This document shows positions 166-5,559 of a DNA stretch of 5,719 bases, in pieces. The stretch comes from Candidatus Rokuibacteriota bacterium (GTDB lineage: Bacteria > Methylomirabilota > Methylomirabilia > Rokubacteriales > JACPHL01), in contig JACPHL010000158.1 of the NCBI GenBank assembly GCA_016188625.1, forward strand, positions 1 to 5,719, given 5' to 3'. A program made the translations under genes and the position numbers. Under the pieces are notes generated by a model, which searched no databases, was not told the origin of the DNA, and worked only from the letters and a program-made list of their open reading frames with translations. The first letter of the stretch is position 1; each line of letters opens with the position of its first letter.

Positions 166-477
166 CTACTCCAGGTAGGTGGCCAGGTCGGGGATCGCCG
201 GGGCGAGCTGCGGCAGGGGCTGCATGACGGCGGTGTCGCGCTTCGGGGCGTAGCCGGGCGGATAGGTCCCGCCCAGCACCTTCGCCTCGAGCAGTTCCCT
301 CGACGAGCCCTTGATCGCGGGCCCGACCGTGCCCTCCCGGGTCGGGTCCAGGTTGTGGCAGGCGATGCACTGCGCGAGGTACACCTGCTGACCGCGGGCC
401 GCCGGGCCGTCCGCCCCGCCGCAGCCCGCCGCCGCCAGCGCGAGCGCGCACACCCACAGGGCGTCGCGTCGAGCCAC
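166..477 (-). CDS. Small monohaem cytochrome c, predicted lipoprotein (103 aa)
   Basis: The protein begins with a short basic N-terminus, a hydrophobic stretch (residues 7-18) and a lipobox-like Ala-Ala-Gly-Cys ending at Cys19. The mature protein (about 85 aa) is therefore probably lipid-anchored outside the cytoplasmic membrane. The haem site is CIACH (Cys37, Cys40, His41). VGPAIKG at 51-57 matches the conserved Gly-Pro turn of class I cytochromes c, and Met85 (AVMQP) is the likely distal haem ligand. The family carries single electrons between periplasmic partners; the partner here is unknown. The start is GTG at 477-475, chosen because it gives an intact signal peptide and overlaps the preceding TAG stop by one base (TAGTG). 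I see no good Shine-Dalgarno, so translation is probably coupled to the DUF3501 gene. The longer frame reading upstream to 714 is antisense-like composition, not signal sequence. It is the last gene of the operon. Confidence 0.85.
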   Translation of the reverse strand: MARRDALWVCALALAAAGCGGADGPAARGQQVYLAQCIACHNLDPTREGTVGPAIKGSSRELLEAKVLGGTYPPGYAPKRDTAVMQPLPQLAPAIPDLATYLE

Positions 478-1064
478 TAGGCCCCGAGGTCCTGAAGGAG
501 CGAGGCCTTCACCTCGTCCGGGATCCGAACCCGGGCCCGGGCGCCCGGATGATCCGCCACGAGGAAGGCATCGTCCTCGCGGAAGCCCCGGATCTCGGCC
601 GGGCCGAAGCGGAACCTCACGAAGTGGACGGCGCTGAGCTTGCCGCGCTCCTCGTCCGAGTGCCCGGCCTCGAAGATCCCCGGGATCACGTGCGCCCCGC
701 CGATCTCGATCCACACGCGCTCGCCGACGTCGATCCCCATCAGCCGATCCAGGGTCTCCTTGATGAGGGCAGGGTCCTCGATCTCGATGAACAGGGTGGC
801 GGACAGCTCCCCCTCGCCGGGGATCAGGTCGTTGTAGACGTCGATCTCGTCCCGGACCCTGGCCTCCTCCACGATGCGCTCCGCCCGCAGCATCTCCTGG
901 ATCTGGAAGAGCACCGTCTCCCGGTTCTCGAAGAGGAAGGAGAGGTGGTCGCCCACCTGGACCCGGCGCCGGCGCTTGAGGTCGATGATCCGGCGCCGGT
1001 AACCCTCCCGCATCCGCTCGTACTCGATGAGGGGCGCGACCTCGGCGAACTCGATCTTCCGCAT
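477..1064 (-). CDS. DUF3501 family protein (195 aa)
   Basis: Recognised as DUF3501 from family-like blocks: SFLFENRETVLFQIQEMLRA at 42-61, then an acidic segment with DVYNDLIPGEGELSATLFIE around 75-94. It has no cysteine, no signal peptide and no membrane segment, so it is a soluble cytoplasmic protein unlikely to carry an Fe-S cluster itself. Its biochemical role is not known to me. The family recurs beside rubrerythrin and CCG-type Fe-S proteins, which is the arrangement here, so a role as assembly or partner subunit of the Fe-S protein is a reasonable inference. The ATG at 1064-1062 overlaps the Fe-S gene's TGA by one base (TGATG). A GAGGAGG Shine-Dalgarno lies four bases upstream inside that gene, which fixes the start. 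The stop codon shares its last base with the GTG of the cytochrome gene. Confidence 0.88.
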   Translation of the reverse strand: MRKIEFAEVAPLIEYERMREGYRRRIIDLKRRRRVQVGDHLSFLFENRETVLFQIQEMLRAERIVEEARVRDEIDVYNDLIPGEGELSATLFIEIEDPALIKETLDRLMGIDVGERVWIEIGGAHVIPGIFEAGHSDEERGKLSAVHFVRFRFGPAEIRGFREDDAFLVADHPGARARVRIPDEVKASLLQDLGA

Positions 1065-2326
1065 CAGGCCTCCTCGATCCCGTACGCCCGCGCCAGGAGT
1101 TGGACCGGGTGGAGGGGGCGAGACCCCAGGCCCTGGGCGATCTGGAGCGCCGAGAGCGGGCAGTCGGTGGCGATCTGGTCGGCCCGGGCCTCGCGGAGCT
1201 CGCGGAGGAGCGGCTCGGCGACCCGGAGCGACAACCCGTAGAATTCCCGCTTCATCCCCCAGGTCCCGTCCATCCCCGAGCAGCGCTCGACGAGCCCGAC
1301 CCGCGCCCCCGGGATCAGGGCGAGGGCGTCCCGCGACTTGAACCCGATGTTCTGCGCCCGCAGGTGACAGGGGATCTGGTAGGCGATCCGGCCGATCCCG
1401 GCCTGGAAGGCCATGTCCAGCCGGCCCGCCTCGTGGCGCCGCATCAGGTACTCCATCAGGTCGAAGGTCCGCGCCGCGACCACCCGGGCCTCCGGCGAGC
1501 CGTGGAGCCAGGGGTACTCCTGCTTGAGGACGTAGCTGCAGGTCGGGCCCGGGACCACGATGTCCACCCCCGCCTCGGCCAGGGGCGCCAGGCTCCGGAG
1601 GTTGGCCTCCATCTTCGCGAGGGCCGCGTCGATGTCGCCGCCGTCGAGCCACGGCATCCCGCAGCAGCGCTGGGGCGGCAGCTCGACCGCGAGGCCGTTC
1701 CGCTCCAGGACCGCCACGGCGGCCTTACCGACTGCCGGGTCGTGGTACTCCACCGAGCAGGTGGCGAACAGGGCCACCCGCTCCCCGCCGGTCGCGCCGG
1801 AGCGCCGCCGGGCGAACCAGCGCGAGAAGGGCTCCCGAGCGAAGGGGGGGAGCTGGCGGTCTCGGTGGATCCCCACCACCCGCTCCAGGAAGAGCCGGTG
1901 CGGGCGGAAGGTGTTGGCCCAGGTCGAGAGCGGCGCGGTCAGGGTCCCGAGCCGCCCCAGCCGGTCCGGGTCGCCGAGGAGCCGGTCCTGGCGCGTCACC
2001 CCCTCGCGGCGGGCCCGGACGGCCCTGGCCCGGAGCATCACCCGCGGGAAGTCGAGGTCGAAGCGGTGGGGCGGGGTGTAGGGGCAGTGGTTGAAGCAGA
2101 GCTTGCACTGGTAGCAGAGCTCCTCCACGCGCCGGAGGTCGCCGGTGGGGAGCCGCTCGGCCTCCCCATCCACCGCCTCCTGATCGAGGCCGGCGAAGAG
2201 GTGGGCGAAGGAGGGGCAGAGGTTGAAGCAGCGGCGGCAGCCGGTGCAGATGTCGAAGATCCGCCGCTCCTCCCGCTCGAGGGCGGCCTGATCCCAGAAC
2301 CCGGACGCGCGGATGTCTAGTGTCAT
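1064..2326 (-). CDS. GlpC/HdrD-like Fe-S oxidoreductase with two [4Fe-4S] motifs and CCG domains (420 aa)
   Basis: The N-terminal half has two bacterial-ferredoxin-type motifs, Cys27/30/33/37 ([12 protein letters not shown]) and Cys71/74/77/81 ([12 protein letters not shown]), each of the CxxCxxCxxxCP form that binds [4Fe-4S]. The C-terminal half has two CCG-type modules as in heterodisulfide reductase HdrD and glycerol-3-phosphate dehydrogenase GlpC. The first has Cys190, Cys221-Cys222-Gly and Cys263. The second has Cys320, Cys349-Ser-Gly and Cys389. The second CCG therefore has Ser350 in place of the second Cys, so that site may bind its cluster differently or not at all. There is no signal peptide or membrane span, so it is cytoplasmic or membrane-peripheral. 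Family members pass electrons between a flavoprotein or quinone and a partner; the substrate here is unknown. It lies behind the rubrerythrin gene across a terminator-like hairpin. No clear Shine-Dalgarno precedes the ATG at 2326. Confidence 0.87.
1069..1075 (-). promoter_or_regulatory. Ribosome binding site for the DUF3501 gene
   Basis: GAGGAGG on the minus strand lies within the last codons of the Fe-S protein gene, four bases before the ATG at 1064. The spacing is short but usable. It supports independent as well as coupled initiation of DUF3501 despite the 1-bp gene overlap. Confidence 0.6.
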
Positions 2327-2348
2327 GACGCTGGAGACCCTTGGGAGG

Positions 2349-2383
2349 GAAACAACGGGGCCGGACCAGTGATCCGGCCCCGT
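2349..2383 (-). terminator. Rho-independent terminator/attenuator after rubrerythrin
   Basis: Bases 2355-2365 pair perfectly with 2373-2383 (11 bp, mostly G-C: CGGGGCCGGA against TCCGGCCCCG plus an outer A-T) around a 7-base loop. In the minus direction the stem is followed by TGTTTCCC, a short T-rich tail. It starts 15 bases past the rubrerythrin stop and ends 28 bases before the Fe-S gene's ATG. I see no separate promoter in that space, so partial read-through is the likely way the downstream genes are expressed. Confidence 0.75.
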
Positions 2384-2398
2384 CGCGCCCCGCTGGTG

Positions 2399-2845
2399 CT
2401 AGATCGCCTCGGCTGGCTCCTTGCCCTGGACGTTCTGCAGCCCCTTGTTGAACCGGCCGGCGTGGGACTTCTCCGCCTTCGCCAGCGTCTCGAACCACTC
2501 GGCCAGCTCGGAGAACCCCTCCTCCCTGGCCGTCTTGGCCATGCCCGGGTACATCTGGGTGTACTCGTAAGTCTCGCCTTCTACCGCCGACTTGAGGTTC
2601 AGCTCGGTCTTGCCGAAGGGGACGTCGGTCACCGGGTCCCCCACCTCCTTGAGGTAGTCGAGGTGCCCGAAGGCGTGACCGGTCTCGGCCTCGGCCGTGT
2701 CGCGGAAGAGCCCGCCCATGTCGGGGTACCCCTCGATGTCCGCCACCCGGGCGAAATACATGTAGCGACGGTTGGCCTGCGACTCCCCTGCGAAGGCGTT
2801 CTTCAGGTTCTCCAGGCTCTTGGTCCCTTTGAGGCTCTTGGCCAT
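2399..2845 (-). CDS. rbr: Rubrerythrin-family diiron protein without rubredoxin domain (148 aa)
   Basis: A ferritin-like four-helix protein with rubrerythrin diiron motifs in order: GESQANRRY (Glu21), [10 protein letters not shown] (Glu54, His57), GETYEY (Glu91, Glu94) and KAEKSH (Glu125, His128). Classical rubrerythrins use such residues to reduce hydrogen peroxide to water in the cytoplasm, fed by electrons from a C-terminal rubredoxin FeS4 domain. Here the protein ends soon after the fourth helix, at residue 148, and contains no cysteine at all, so that domain is absent and an outside electron donor is required. The Fe-S protein downstream is the obvious local candidate, by inference. The ATG at 2845-2843 has a strong AAAGGAGGA eight bases upstream. 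Only 37 bases separate it from the regulator's stop, so it is probably co-transcribed with it. A terminator-like hairpin follows. Confidence 0.93.
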
Positions 2846-2853
2846 GCGTGCAC

Positions 2854-2862
2854 TCCTCCTTT
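2854..2862 (-). promoter_or_regulatory. Strong Shine-Dalgarno of rubrerythrin
   Basis: AAAGGAGGA on the minus strand, eight bases before the ATG at 2845, is the strongest ribosome binding site in the window. It decides the start against the longer upstream-extended frame. With the terminator behind the gene, it suggests high rubrerythrin output. Confidence 0.85.
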
Positions 2863-2882
2863 CGGTTGAGCGTGAGTGAGGG

Positions 2883-3386
2883 TTAGCCCCGGGAGGCGCC
2901 CCTCGCCGGTCCCCGGGGGCGAGCCGTCCGGGGTCGGGCGCCCCTCCCGAGACAGTCGGTACAGTAGCCGAGGAACTCGATCCGATGACCCAGGACCTTG
3001 AACCGGCGCCCCAGCCGCCGGGGGGTCCTCGGGCGCCGCGTGGACTCGTCGGCGATGTCGATGATGGTCCTGCACCCGAGGCACACGGCGTGGTCGTGCC
3101 GCTCCTGGTTCGGCTCGTAGCGGGCCGCCACGTCGCCGATCCCCACCTCGGAGATCTCACCGACCCGCTTCAGGGCCTCCAGGGTCTGGTAGATCGTGTT
3201 GCGGGAGATCATCGGCACCCGCCCCCGAACCTCCCGGTAGAGCTCCTCGGCGGTGGGGTGCGAGCGGCTCGCCCTGAGGGCCCGGAAGACGGCCAGGCGC
3301 TGGGGGGTCAGCTTGAGACCGGCCCGCCTGAGGCGCTCGGCCAACGGGTCCAGGGGAGCGATCGTCTCGTGCCCTTTCGGTAGCAT
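2883..3386 (-). CDS. perR: PerR-like Fur-family transcriptional regulator (167 aa)
   Basis: A winged-helix DNA-binding domain covers about residues 15-83 (LTPQRLAVF at 26-34, HPTAEELY at 43-50, recognition helix SRNTIYQTLEAL at 61-72), followed by the Fur dimer domain. Cys102-x-x-Cys105 and Cys142-x-x-Cys145 form the structural Zn(Cys)4 site. By alignment from memory with Bacillus PerR, the regulatory metal ligands are His43, Glu91, His97, His99 and Asp110. Asp at the last position is the residue associated with peroxide sensing rather than iron sensing (Fur has Glu), while Glu91 is Fur-like. With a rubrerythrin next door, a peroxide-responsive repressor is the best call. Odd features are a basic Arg/Pro-rich stretch at 117-128, where homologues have a helix, and an Arg/Gly/Pro tail at 147-167. 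The ATG at 3386 abuts its own promoter and operator, so autoregulation and a leaderless mRNA are likely. Confidence 0.88.
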   Translation of the reverse strand: MLPKGHETIAPLDPLAERLRRAGLKLTPQRLAVFRALRASRSHPTAEELYREVRGRVPMISRNTIYQTLEALKRVGEISEVGIGDVAARYEPNQERHDHAVCLGCRTIIDIADESTRRPRTPRRLGRRFKVLGHRIEFLGYCTDCLGRGARPRTARPRGPARGASRG

Positions 3387-3410
3387 TAGGAATCAATCCT
3401 AATCAGGATT
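3385..3410. promoter_or_regulatory. Putative PerR/Fur operator (overlapping AT-rich dyads)
   Basis: Two overlapping inverted repeats stand out in an otherwise GC-rich region. ATTAGGA (3385-3391) faces TCCTAAT (3397-3403) across 5 bases. AATCC (3395-3399) faces GGATT (3406-3410) across 6 bases. Together they make three alternating AGGATT-type half-sites. They cover the -10 element and the start codon of the regulator gene, an ideal place for repression. The motif is not the classical Fur box or the Bacillus PerR box, so assignment to this regulator rests on position and symmetry. No similar site is visible before the rubrerythrin gene. Confidence 0.7.
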
Positions 3411-3424
3411 TTGTCCCGTGTCAA
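3396..3424 (-). promoter_or_regulatory. Promoter of the perR-rbr operon
   Basis: On the minus strand a perfect -35 TTGACA (3424-3419), a 17-base spacer and a -10 TAGGAT (3401-3396, 4 of 6 to consensus) match a housekeeping sigma promoter. The expected transcription start, about 3389-3386, coincides with the ATG at 3386, so the mRNA would be leaderless or nearly so. The AGGA within the -10 lies 10 bases before the ATG and could serve as a ribosome site only if transcription started further upstream. Confidence 0.7.
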
Positions 3425-3467: not shown

Positions 3468-3497
3468 TTGAGGGCCCGCGGCAGGCGGGGGTATAAT
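3468..3497 (+). promoter_or_regulatory. Promoter of the MBL-DUF554 operon
   Basis: TTGAGG (3468-3473, 4 of 6 to the -35 consensus), an 18-base spacer and a perfect TATAAT (3492-3497) precede the ATG at 3506. Only 8 bases lie between the -10 and the ATG, and they contain no Shine-Dalgarno, so transcription probably begins at or next to the A of the start codon. The operator at 3385-3410 is about 60 bases upstream of the -35, so direct repression from it is not expected. Confidence 0.75.
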
Positions 3498-3505
3498 GTT
3501 CCGCC

Positions 3506-4885
3506 ATGCGCGTGACCCTGATCGGCCACGCCTCCCTCCTCATCGAGACGGCGGGGGGCACGGTCCTCACGGATCCGGTCTTCTTCGACCCCTTCGAGGG
3601 CGGGGCGGTGACCTCCTGCCCCGAGCGGGAGGTGGACCCCGGGAAGCTCCCCGAGGTGGACTACCTGGTCGTCTCCCATCGTCACGCGGACCATTTCGAC
3701 ATCCCGTCCCTGGCGCGCGTCCCCCGGGGCTGCCAGGTGCTCTGCCCGCGGGATCCCCTCATCCTGTACGCCCTGGACCGGCTCGGCTTCGGCCGGGTCA
3801 CCCCGGTGGACCCGATGCGCCCGCTCCCCGCCTTCGACCTCCAGCTCTTCCCCACCCGCTCCGAGGAGCCGACCGTGCGGGAGTTCGGGCTCGTCGTCGC
3901 CGACGGGTCGGGGACGCTCTGGAACCAGGTGGACACCGTGCTCTCCCTCGCCACGATCCAGGCGACCGTCGCCCGCTTCGGGGCCATCGACGCCCACATC
4001 GCCCGTTACGCCAGCCAGAACTTCGACTTCTTCGAGGGGCGGGCCGCGGGCTTCCCCTACGAGGAGCACCAGCGGAACCTCGAGACCGTCCTCGCCGTCC
4101 GGCCGCGGGTGGCGGTCCCGGGCTCGGCCGGGTTCAGGTTCGCCGCCCCGCACGGCTGGCTGAACCGTTACCTCTTCCCGGTCTCCTCGGAGCGGTTCGC
4201 CGCCGACCTCGCCGGGCTCGAGCCGGCGATCCGTCCCCTCCTCATGAGGCCGGGGGACGCGCTCGATATCGAGCGCGGCGAGGTCCATCACTCCCAGGGG
4301 GCCTCACCCTTCTGCCGGACGGTGCGGGATGACACCGAGGCGATCCGCTTCGACCCGACTGCCCCCATCCCGCCCCTCGAGGACCCGAACCCCGACGGCT
4401 ACCCGGAGGCCGAGATGGAGCGGGTGATCGGCGGGTTCCTGGAGCGCCTCCACGGCTACGCGGTCGCGCAGGCCGACCGGCGTCTGACCCTGCCCGACCG
4501 CTACCGGCGCGCCCGGGCGCTCTACGAGCTCGAGGTCATCTTCCCGGCCGGGCGTCGCCGCTGGCAGCTCGACTTCCGCGCCGACCCCCCGCGCCTCGAC
4601 CCGGACGGGACGGCTGAGGCCCACGTGGTCCACCGGATCGCCGCCTCCGCCCTCACCGGCTGGGTCCTCCGCCGCCGGGGGTACCTCTACACCCGCGCCT
4701 ACTCCCGGCGGTCCTCCACCCTCTACCGGGTCTACGGCGACGAGGCGGGCGTGGAGGTCCGGCCGGTGACCCTGCCGGACCTGGCCATTCACTACCTCCT
4801 GAACGTCGCCGAGGACGCCGCCGACGCGGCCCGCCGGCGGATCGACCTCGAGATCGAGGCCTGCCCCGGGGCGGGGCAGTCATGA
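3506..4885 (+). CDS. Two-domain metallo-beta-lactamase-fold hydrolase-like protein (459 aa)
   Basis: The N-terminal domain (about 1-260) is an MBL fold of the UlaG/COG2220 and CMP-Neu5Ac-hydroxylase-like type. It opens with LIGHASLLI (His8), then TDPVF, then the metal motif HRHADH (His58, His60, Asp62, His63), LWNQVDT (Asp143) and PGSAGFRF at 205-212. I cannot find the usual metal-binding His in the strand segment LFPTRSEE near 114-121, so the metal site may be unusual. The C-terminal part (about 300-450) is a separate alpha/beta region (LYELEVIFPAGRRRWQLDF at 339-357, then an Arg/Tyr-rich stretch to about 410) that I do not recognise; an SCP2-like fold is only a guess. It is soluble, with no signal peptide. 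Its substrate is unknown. The start at 3506 directly follows a TATAAT promoter, with no ribosome site. The ATGA overlap with the DUF554 gene shows an operon. Confidence 0.8.
   Translation: MRVTLIGHASLLIETAGGTVLTDPVFFDPFEGGAVTSCPEREVDPGKLPEVDYLVVSHRHADHFDIPSLARVPRGCQVLCPRDPLILYALDRLGFGRVTPVDPMRPLPAFDLQLFPTRSEEPTVREFGLVVADGSGTLWNQVDTVLSLATIQATVARFGAIDAHIARYASQNFDFFEGRAAGFPYEEHQRNLETVLAVRPRVAVPGSAGFRFAAPHGWLNRYLFPVSSERFAADLAGLEPAIRPLLMRPGDALDIERGEVHHSQGASPFCRTVRDDTEAIRFDPTAPIPPLEDPNPDGYPEAEMERVIGGFLERLHGYAVAQADRRLTLPDRYRRARALYELEVIFPAGRRRWQLDFRADPPRLDPDGTAEAHVVHRIAASALTGWVLRRRGYLYTRAYSRRSSTLYRVYGDEAGVEVRPVTLPDLAIHYLLNVAEDAADAARRRIDLEIEACPGAGQS
4861..4879 (+). promoter_or_regulatory. Hairpin just before the DUF554 start, possible coupling element
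   Basis: CTGCCCC (4861-4867) pairs perfectly with GGGGCAG (4873-4879) around GGGGC, ending two bases before the ATG at 4882. The only G-rich ribosome-site candidate for DUF554 lies in the loop and 3' arm, so it would be hidden unless ribosomes finishing the upstream gene open the stem. Such translational coupling is inferred. In DNA this GC-rich, short stems occur by chance quite often. Confidence 0.4.
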
Positions 4886-5559
4886 AGGGGACCCTCGTCA
4901 ACGTCGTCGCCGTCCTCGCGGGGAGCGGGCTCGGGCTGGCCATCGGAGGGCGGCTCCCCGAGCGCTGGAAGGGGATCATCACGGACGCCCTCGGCCTGGC
5001 CACCCTCGTCATCGGGGTGAAGCTCGCCCTCCAGGCCCAGAACCTCCTCATCGTGATCGGGAGCCTGGTGGCGGGCGGGCTCCTCGGGGAGTGGGGGGAC
5101 CTCGAGGGGCGGCTCGAGCGGTTCGGGGAGTGGCTCAAGAGTCGGACCGGGGCCCAGGAGGGGACCTTCGCGGCCGGCTTCGTGACGGCGAGCCTGGTCT
5201 ACTGCGTCGGGCCGATGACCGTGGTGGGCGCCATCCAGGAGGGGATCGACGGGACGGCCGACATCCTCTACGCCAAGTCGATGCTGGACGGGGCGGCCTC
5301 GGTCGCCTTCGCCTCCACCCTGGGGCTCGGCGTCGCCTTCGCCGCCCTGACGGTCCTGGTGGTCCAGGGCGGCCTCACCCTCCTCGGGGGCCGGCTCGCC
5401 TTCCTCCTGGACGAGAAGGTGCTGAACGAGCTGACCGGGACCGGCGGGGTCCTCATCCTGGGGATCGGGCTCCTCCTCCTCGACGTCCGCCGACTCCGCG
5501 TCGCCAACTTCCTCCCCGCCCTCCCCCTCGCCGTCCTCCTGGCGACCCTGTTTCGGTAA
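4882..5559 (+). CDS. DUF554 family integral membrane protein (225 aa)
   Basis: Recognised as DUF554 (the family of Bacillus YdfK) from the N-terminal GTLVNVVAVLAGSGLGLAIG, the central block CVGPMTVVGAIQEGIDG at 108-124 and the KSMLDGAASVAFASTLGLGV block at 132-151. About six or seven membrane segments can be seen, near residues 4-22, 33-51, 54-70, 97-116, 141-163, 187-201 and 207-223, so it sits in the cytoplasmic membrane. The length is normal for the family. Function is unknown; a transport role is often suspected from the fold, but nothing here names a substrate. The ATG overlaps the MBL gene's TGA as ATGA, so translation is probably coupled. The stop TAA is followed at once by the repeat hairpin. 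Its link with the MBL protein is by operon only. Confidence 0.9.
   Translation: MKGTLVNVVAVLAGSGLGLAIGGRLPERWKGIITDALGLATLVIGVKLALQAQNLLIVIGSLVAGGLLGEWGDLEGRLERFGEWLKSRTGAQEGTFAAGFVTASLVYCVGPMTVVGAIQEGIDGTADILYAKSMLDGAASVAFASTLGLGVAFAALTVLVVQGGLTLLGGRLAFLLDEKVLNELTGTGGVLILGIGLLLLDVRRLRVANFLPALPLAVLLATLFR

Follow-up and report, generated by a model that had tools for sequence, protein, structure and literature searches.

Introduction

In the aerobic-type rubrerythrin system, a rubrerythrin (RBR) without a rubredoxin domain co-localizes and co-occurs with a DUF3501 protein and a GlpC-like Fe-S protein called RFO, and all three were found in 185 genomes (Cardenas, Quatrini and Holmes 2016, PMC5114695). 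The same study proposed that RFO compensates for the absent rubredoxin domain by acting as electron donor and that it is related to GlpC/HdrD, and described DUF3501 with RBR but without RFO in Thermoproteales. Mitochondria of Andalucia and other protists are predicted to have the trio as well (PMC7050145), it has been noted in a Blastocatellia operon, and a DUF3501-RFO fusion protein has been published for Nitrosomonas. Here, we analyzed a locus of this kind, perR-rbr-RFO-DUF3501-cytochrome c, in a Candidatus Rokuibacteriota bacterium (2.6-Mb assembly, 84% complete). The window is the whole stretch analyzed, positions 1 to 5,719 of contig JACPHL010000158.1.

Two other described proteins are relevant to this locus. 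Ferriperoxin (Fpx) of Hydrogenobacter thermophilus is a rubredoxin-less RBR with demonstrated peroxidase activity toward H2O2 and organic peroxides, and the fpx mutant shows no aerobic growth (PMC3317640). PuuD is a membrane-bound urate oxidase that carries a cytochrome c at its C terminus, and short DUF989 proteins lacking the cytochrome and found in a different gene context were noted in the same work (PMC4562309).

We consider it quite likely that the window encodes a self-contained aerobic-type rubrerythrin system under PerR repression and that its cytochrome c belongs to a different, two-gene unit.

Organization and regulation of the operon

The five genes named in the initial annotation were all found on the minus strand, arranged head to tail from 3386 to 166 in the same direction and with short gaps, as in most of the order Rokubacteriales. 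The first, perR (2883-3386), encodes a Fur-family protein (PF01475, 8.7e-26) assigned as a peroxide-sensing repressor. It is followed by rbr (2399-2845; PF02915, 9.2e-30), encoding an aerobic-type rubrerythrin with a diiron four-helix domain, by the gene for the GlpC/HdrD-like Fe-S protein RFO (1064-2326; GlpC-like family matches and an HdrB match), and by the DUF3501 gene (477-1064; PF12007, 9.8e-61). The last gene (166-477, with a GTG start at 477 or 453; PF00034/PF13442) encodes a class I monohaem cytochrome c lipoprotein. As judged from their domains, the linked DUF3501 protein and the linked GlpC-like, COG0247-type RFO place this RBR in the published trio. The closest relatives of the window's DUF3501 are in Rokubacteria/Methylomirabilota metagenome-assembled genomes, and gene order of the perR-rbr-RFO-DUF3501 type recurs across many phyla, far above chance.

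A candidate promoter and PerR operator were located at 3387-3424 on the minus strand by a sigma70-like promoter scan and a palindrome. Upstream of perR, TTGACA (3424-3419) is separated by a 17-nt spacer from the -10 element TAGGAT (3401-3396); two promoter-like sites were found in the window against 0.1 expected. A 7-1-7 palindrome, TAGGATTGATTCCTA, at 3401-3387 shares bases with the -10 box and runs right up to the perR ATG (3386), and a second palindrome, ATCCTAATCAGGAT, at 3396-3409 overlaps TAGGATTGATTCCTA (0.06 expected). Since the palindrome covers the -10 element and touches the start codon, it is plausible that a repressor at TAGGATTGATTCCTA occludes the promoter, and the perR transcript may be nearly leaderless.

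To compare operators, we used the motif TRRKAATNATTMCTA and counted sites that agree with it in at least 12 of its 14 positions; TAGGATTGATTCCTA fits it at 13/14. The motif was found upstream of PerR in 42/61 loci compared with 0.6% of shuffles, an enrichment that is partly circular because the motif was defined after inspection of the same loci. It agrees with independently derived Desulfovibrio PerR boxes, such as AATAGGAATCGTTCCTGTT (PMC545781 Table 7). No match was found upstream of RFO (0/75 regions) or DUF3501 (0/89 regions). The only other operator match in this genome, with 1 mismatch, lies within an unrelated, glycerate-kinase-like frame. A wider PerR regulon was considered for this genome and rejected, since this sole extra match is intragenic and probably due to chance.

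Residues H43, H97, H99, C102, C105, C142 and C145 of PerR are invariant in the alignment, the four cysteines being those of the zinc site. The PerR-type aspartate D110 (B. subtilis D104) is present in the window protein and in at least 90% of the alignment rows, and the window protein has E where B. subtilis PerR has D85. B. subtilis PerR (2FE3) is the best PDB match of the family, and the top NCBIfam model for the window protein is PerR, but the score is below the model cut-off. The Fur fold, the Zn-Cys4 site, the histidine ligands, the PerR-type aspartate and the box at its own promoter together point to a PerR.

Redox centers of the products

The E and ExxH diiron ligands of RBR are present in the window and invariant in 29 orthologues. 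Cysteine is absent from the window protein and from all 29 aligned orthologues, and there is no rubredoxin domain, which confirms the initial description of this protein. The RBR matched B. pseudomallei Rbr (4DI0, 4e-60) and sulerythrin (8e-56), and classical D. vulgaris Rbr at only 7e-25. By these matches it would fit the sulerythrin/B. pseudomallei Rbr/ferriperoxin lineage without a rubredoxin domain.

RFO carries two 4Fe-4S sites (C27/30/33/37 and C71/74/77/81) and two CCG domains. Fifteen cysteines are kept in at least 97% of 39 loci, and the cubane-cluster sites are complete. We propose that RFO is likely the Fe-S electron donor to RBR.

DUF3501 has no conserved cysteine column (cysteine is entirely absent in 31/54 sequences) and no haem motif. 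Because no cysteine is conserved, it is unlikely to be an electron carrier; a role as docking or assembly factor is likely. The AlphaFold2 model of DUF3501 (pLDDT 95.6) consists of helices and a beta-sandwich, and shares its fold with 3FJV (Z 24.5, rmsd 1.9), a structure whose function is unknown. The fold was discarded as a functional clue, since only 3FJV matched clearly and the other matches (Z <7) may merely reflect a common arrangement.

Gene neighbourhoods of DUF3501

We collected 63 DUF3501 loci from 84,980 species genomes and found 47 positive genomes among 95 of the phylum Methylomirabilota; 89 distinct DUF3501 sequences were pooled. The window's own DUF3501 was the query for the first locus set, and since many of the loci are related, the counts do not represent independent events. 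For loci with at least 2.5 kb of upstream sequence, RBR and RFO both adjoin DUF3501 in 67/75 cases (33/33 in the phylum, 34/42 outside), and PerR lies within 4.5 kb of DUF3501 in 48/61 loci. The recurrence expected for the first members of the operon was therefore borne out, its core being already published (PMC5114695), and the opposite pattern, DUF3501/Fe-S pairs mostly without RBR, was not seen. None of the surveyed loci carries a DUF3501-RFO fusion, and a plasmid search for DUF3501 returned 4 Burkholderia records.

Two variants of the neighbourhood were observed. In Leptospirillum-type and related Nitrospirae loci (L041, L051, L052), RFO and DUF3501 stand together and the rubrerythrin is not adjacent. 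Some Rokubacteria (L103, L104, L123, L124) have a more divergent trio elsewhere on the chromosome, with a different PerR that is sometimes divergently transcribed; this trio looks like an independent acquisition.

A free rubredoxin acting as donor in this genome would refute the reading of the initial annotation. Neither this genome, which is 84% complete, nor any of the 47 DUF3501-bearing phylum genomes gave a rubredoxin (PF00301) hit, and rubredoxin was accordingly rejected as a hidden donor. All 5 rubredoxin-positive phylum genomes are without DUF3501 (Fisher p ~0.056, suggestive only).

The cytochrome c gene and its convergent neighbour

The cytochrome has an invariant lipobox cysteine (Cys19), C37xxC40H41 haem motif and Met85 in 29 orthologues. 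Its lipobox marks it for export, and inspection of the other operon products revealed no export signal. The cytochrome and the other four products are thus predicted to be separated by the membrane, and no membrane protein lies between them.

The orthologue family is sharply bounded (E <1e-33 or absent, apart from one fragment), and 51 copies were found in 50 of the 95 phylum genomes. DUF3501 lies within 300 bp of the cytochrome in only 30/51 copies. A short Urate_ox_N (PF06181) membrane protein lies within 1.2 kb in 44/51, always convergent. Twelve cytochrome-bearing genomes are without DUF3501, and ten of these retain the Urate_ox_N neighbour; conversely, five trio-bearing genomes without the cytochrome retain Urate_ox_N. 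In ten loci, a small conserved gene or UvrA stands directly upstream of the cytochrome in the trio's usual slot, and in four the small conserved gene is upstream with the trio inserted between it and the cytochrome. Four genomes (G040, G065, G089, G091) have a divergent trio elsewhere, and the cytochrome remains with Urate_ox_N.

A search of 31 DUF3501-bearing genomes from outside the phylum gave three with the cytochrome. All three orthologues adjoin a convergent Urate_ox_N gene, and 0/3 adjoin the trio. In 44 loci from outside the phylum, the 1 kb downstream of DUF3501 contains no CxxCH frame. On its distribution and synteny across genomes, the cytochrome was rejected as an operon component, and it is probably co-transcribed with the rubrerythrin operon here, yet as a neighbour.

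The short Urate_ox_N protein (L106:5627-6747 and equivalents; L125:1342-2568, L126:1417-2828, L127:572-2178) matches the parts ~7-35 and ~173-262 of the PF06181 profile and has no CxxCH in 48/48 sequences. The natural reading is that its cytochrome is supplied by a separate gene, and the two genes look like PuuD split in two. Eleven genomes also have a full-length Urate_ox_N protein of PuuD size, and the five that were checked carry CxxCH. Because this full-length protein coexists with it, the pair is probably not simply the urate oxidase. Such a split-PuuD-like pair is apparently undescribed in the part of the literature that we searched. We tentatively suggest, as a possibility with slightly less than even chances, that the pair forms a two-gene, PuuD-like membrane redox enzyme with the cytochrome in trans and a substrate that is not necessarily urate, and that in Rokubacteria the cytochrome has come under peroxide control through its position downstream of the rubrerythrin operon.

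Many Methylomirabilota, and three genomes outside the phylum, have the short Urate_ox_N gene with a convergent lipoprotein cytochrome c. Upstream of the cytochrome, several genomes (L105-L110, L118, L077, L088, L090, L098) encode an NtrC-type response regulator and, after it, two small proteins (~130 and ~105 aa), for which Pfam gave no match in L106.

In the window, the contig ends 165 bp past the cytochrome, inside a dispersed repeat of ~99 bp. This repeat lies near both contig ends (1-99 and 5560-5658), has 44 matches in the 2.6-Mb assembly, mostly at 81-91% identity, and probably caused the assembly break. On the plus strand, a divergent pair at 3506-5559 encodes a metallo-beta-lactamase-fold protein and a DUF554 membrane protein with a 4-bp overlap; a promoter-like TTGAGG-18-TATAAT (3468-3497) lies just 5' of it. 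An Rfam search of the window gave no match.

Discussion

From the position of the operator, we infer that H2O2 inactivates PerR and lifts repression at the -10/start-codon site, so that perR, rbr, RFO and DUF3501 are expressed. The diiron site of RBR would then reduce H2O2 to water, as shown for its close relative ferriperoxin, and the clusters of RFO would relay electrons to RBR in place of the missing rubredoxin. Because of the kinship with GlpC, the quinol pool is the likely electron source for RFO, although a cytosolic ferredoxin/NADPH route could also serve. DUF3501, having no redox group, would most likely dock or assemble RFO with RBR. The convergent Urate_ox_N partner of the cytochrome would lie beyond the contig end or be absent from this genome.

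Several observations weigh against this proposal. NADPH and NADPH:ferredoxin reductase (FNR) reduced ferriperoxin in vitro without RFO, so RFO need not be the donor (PMC3317640), and no biochemistry on RFO or DUF3501 was found in the literature searched. RFO is missing from a few DUF3501 loci (L032, L053, L063), and five have no adjacent RBR. In genomes of the order, DUF3501 and the cytochrome after it are often only a few bases apart or overlap (by 4 bp in several genomes), which makes their co-expression there likely, and a lineage-specific link between cytochrome and trio may exist. PF06181 was not found in this genome, which is 84% complete.

The in vitro result for ferriperoxin is also the starting point of another explanation, in which a general NADPH:ferredoxin-reductase route reduces RBR, and RFO and DUF3501 have no part in feeding catalysis but act after stress to mature, repair or re-reduce RBR that has been damaged, or some other target. 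NADPH and FNR alone sufficed for ferriperoxin, and some loci have DUF3501 and RBR without RFO, as in Thermoproteales. We regard this explanation as rather unlikely, since a purely accessory role poorly explains why RFO is conserved with RBR in 67/75 loci with complete cubane sites. A main function of RBR in iron or oxygen handling instead of peroxide reduction, with PerR control reflecting general oxidative stress, is improbable. Binding of several metals is known for single-domain RBR members, whose activities are a matter of debate, and the Km of ferriperoxin for H2O2 is millimolar. However, Hydrogenobacter loses aerobic growth when fpx is mutated, Fpx reduces both H2O2 and organic peroxides, and the window's RBR has fully conserved ligands and a dedicated PerR box.

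In the reading of the initial annotation, the five genes would together make up a single dedicated electron chain, in which DUF3501 and the cytochrome c lipoprotein exchange electrons with the Fe-S protein and RBR. The co-directional genes, the short gaps and the 4-bp DUF3501/cytochrome overlap in several genomes fit such a chain. We nevertheless find it very improbable. The cytochrome persists in 12 genomes without DUF3501 (ten keeping Urate_ox_N), is not found after the trio in G040, G065, G089 and G091, and is missing from five trio genomes that keep Urate_ox_N; no cytochrome-like frame follows DUF3501 in the 44 loci outside the phylum. Only the cytochrome has a lipobox, which predicts opposite membrane sides with nothing in the membrane to connect them, and DUF3501 lacks a conserved cysteine. 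Of the dedicated chain, RFO remains a reasonable member, DUF3501 is an unlikely one for want of a conserved cysteine or haem motif, and the cytochrome, which tracks the short Urate_ox_N protein, is contradicted by its distribution. The broader claim, a peroxide-defence operon under PerR with a likely Fe-S electron donor for the rubredoxin-less RBR, is supported.

The self-contained, PerR-repressed trio is a further case of a known peroxide-defence system with a proposed electron donor. New here are a PerR operator conserved across phyla, which links the trio to peroxide, and the argument against DUF3501 as an electron carrier. The neighbourhood in a single window misassigns the cytochrome, and the cytochrome with the short Urate_ox_N protein can be tested as a candidate PuuD-like enzyme in split form.

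Relation to described systems

RFO has the same domain order as E. coli GlpC (26% identity), with both cubane sites and the first CCG domain aligned. It differs in its second CCG domain, which has CSG for CCG and a single Cys for CxxC (third site). In the anaerobic glycerol-3-phosphate dehydrogenase of E. coli, GlpC has GlpA and GlpB as partners, and RFO has no such partners.

The cytochrome and its neighbour resemble PuuD (PMC4562309) in pairing a Urate_ox_N membrane domain with a class I cytochrome c, as seen in the neighbourhoods of related genomes. Whereas PuuD is a single fused protein of ~400 aa, here there are two convergent genes, and the membrane part is of the short DUF989 form. No full-length Urate_ox_N fused to cytochrome c is present in the pair.

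Like ferriperoxin, the window's protein is a rubredoxin-less RBR from an organism in which no rubredoxin was found. The in vitro donor of ferriperoxin was NADPH/FNR, in contrast, and the RFO gene is separate in the Hydrogenobacter genome.

The delta-proteobacterial perR-rbr operons (PMC545781) share with the window the adjacency of perR and rbr and a palindrome of the type TAGGAATnnTTCCTn, and in Geobacter the candidate operator also overlaps the -10 element. Those operons include rdl or roo with rubredoxin-type partners, where the window has RFO and DUF3501.

With the aerobic-type rubrerythrin system (PMC5114695) the window shares the same three adjacent families and an RBR without a rubredoxin domain. 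The words 'PerR' and 'cytochrome' are both absent from the searched text of that paper, and the window's cytochrome is adjacent by synteny only. What the window adds to this system is perR as the first gene and a PerR box over its promoter.

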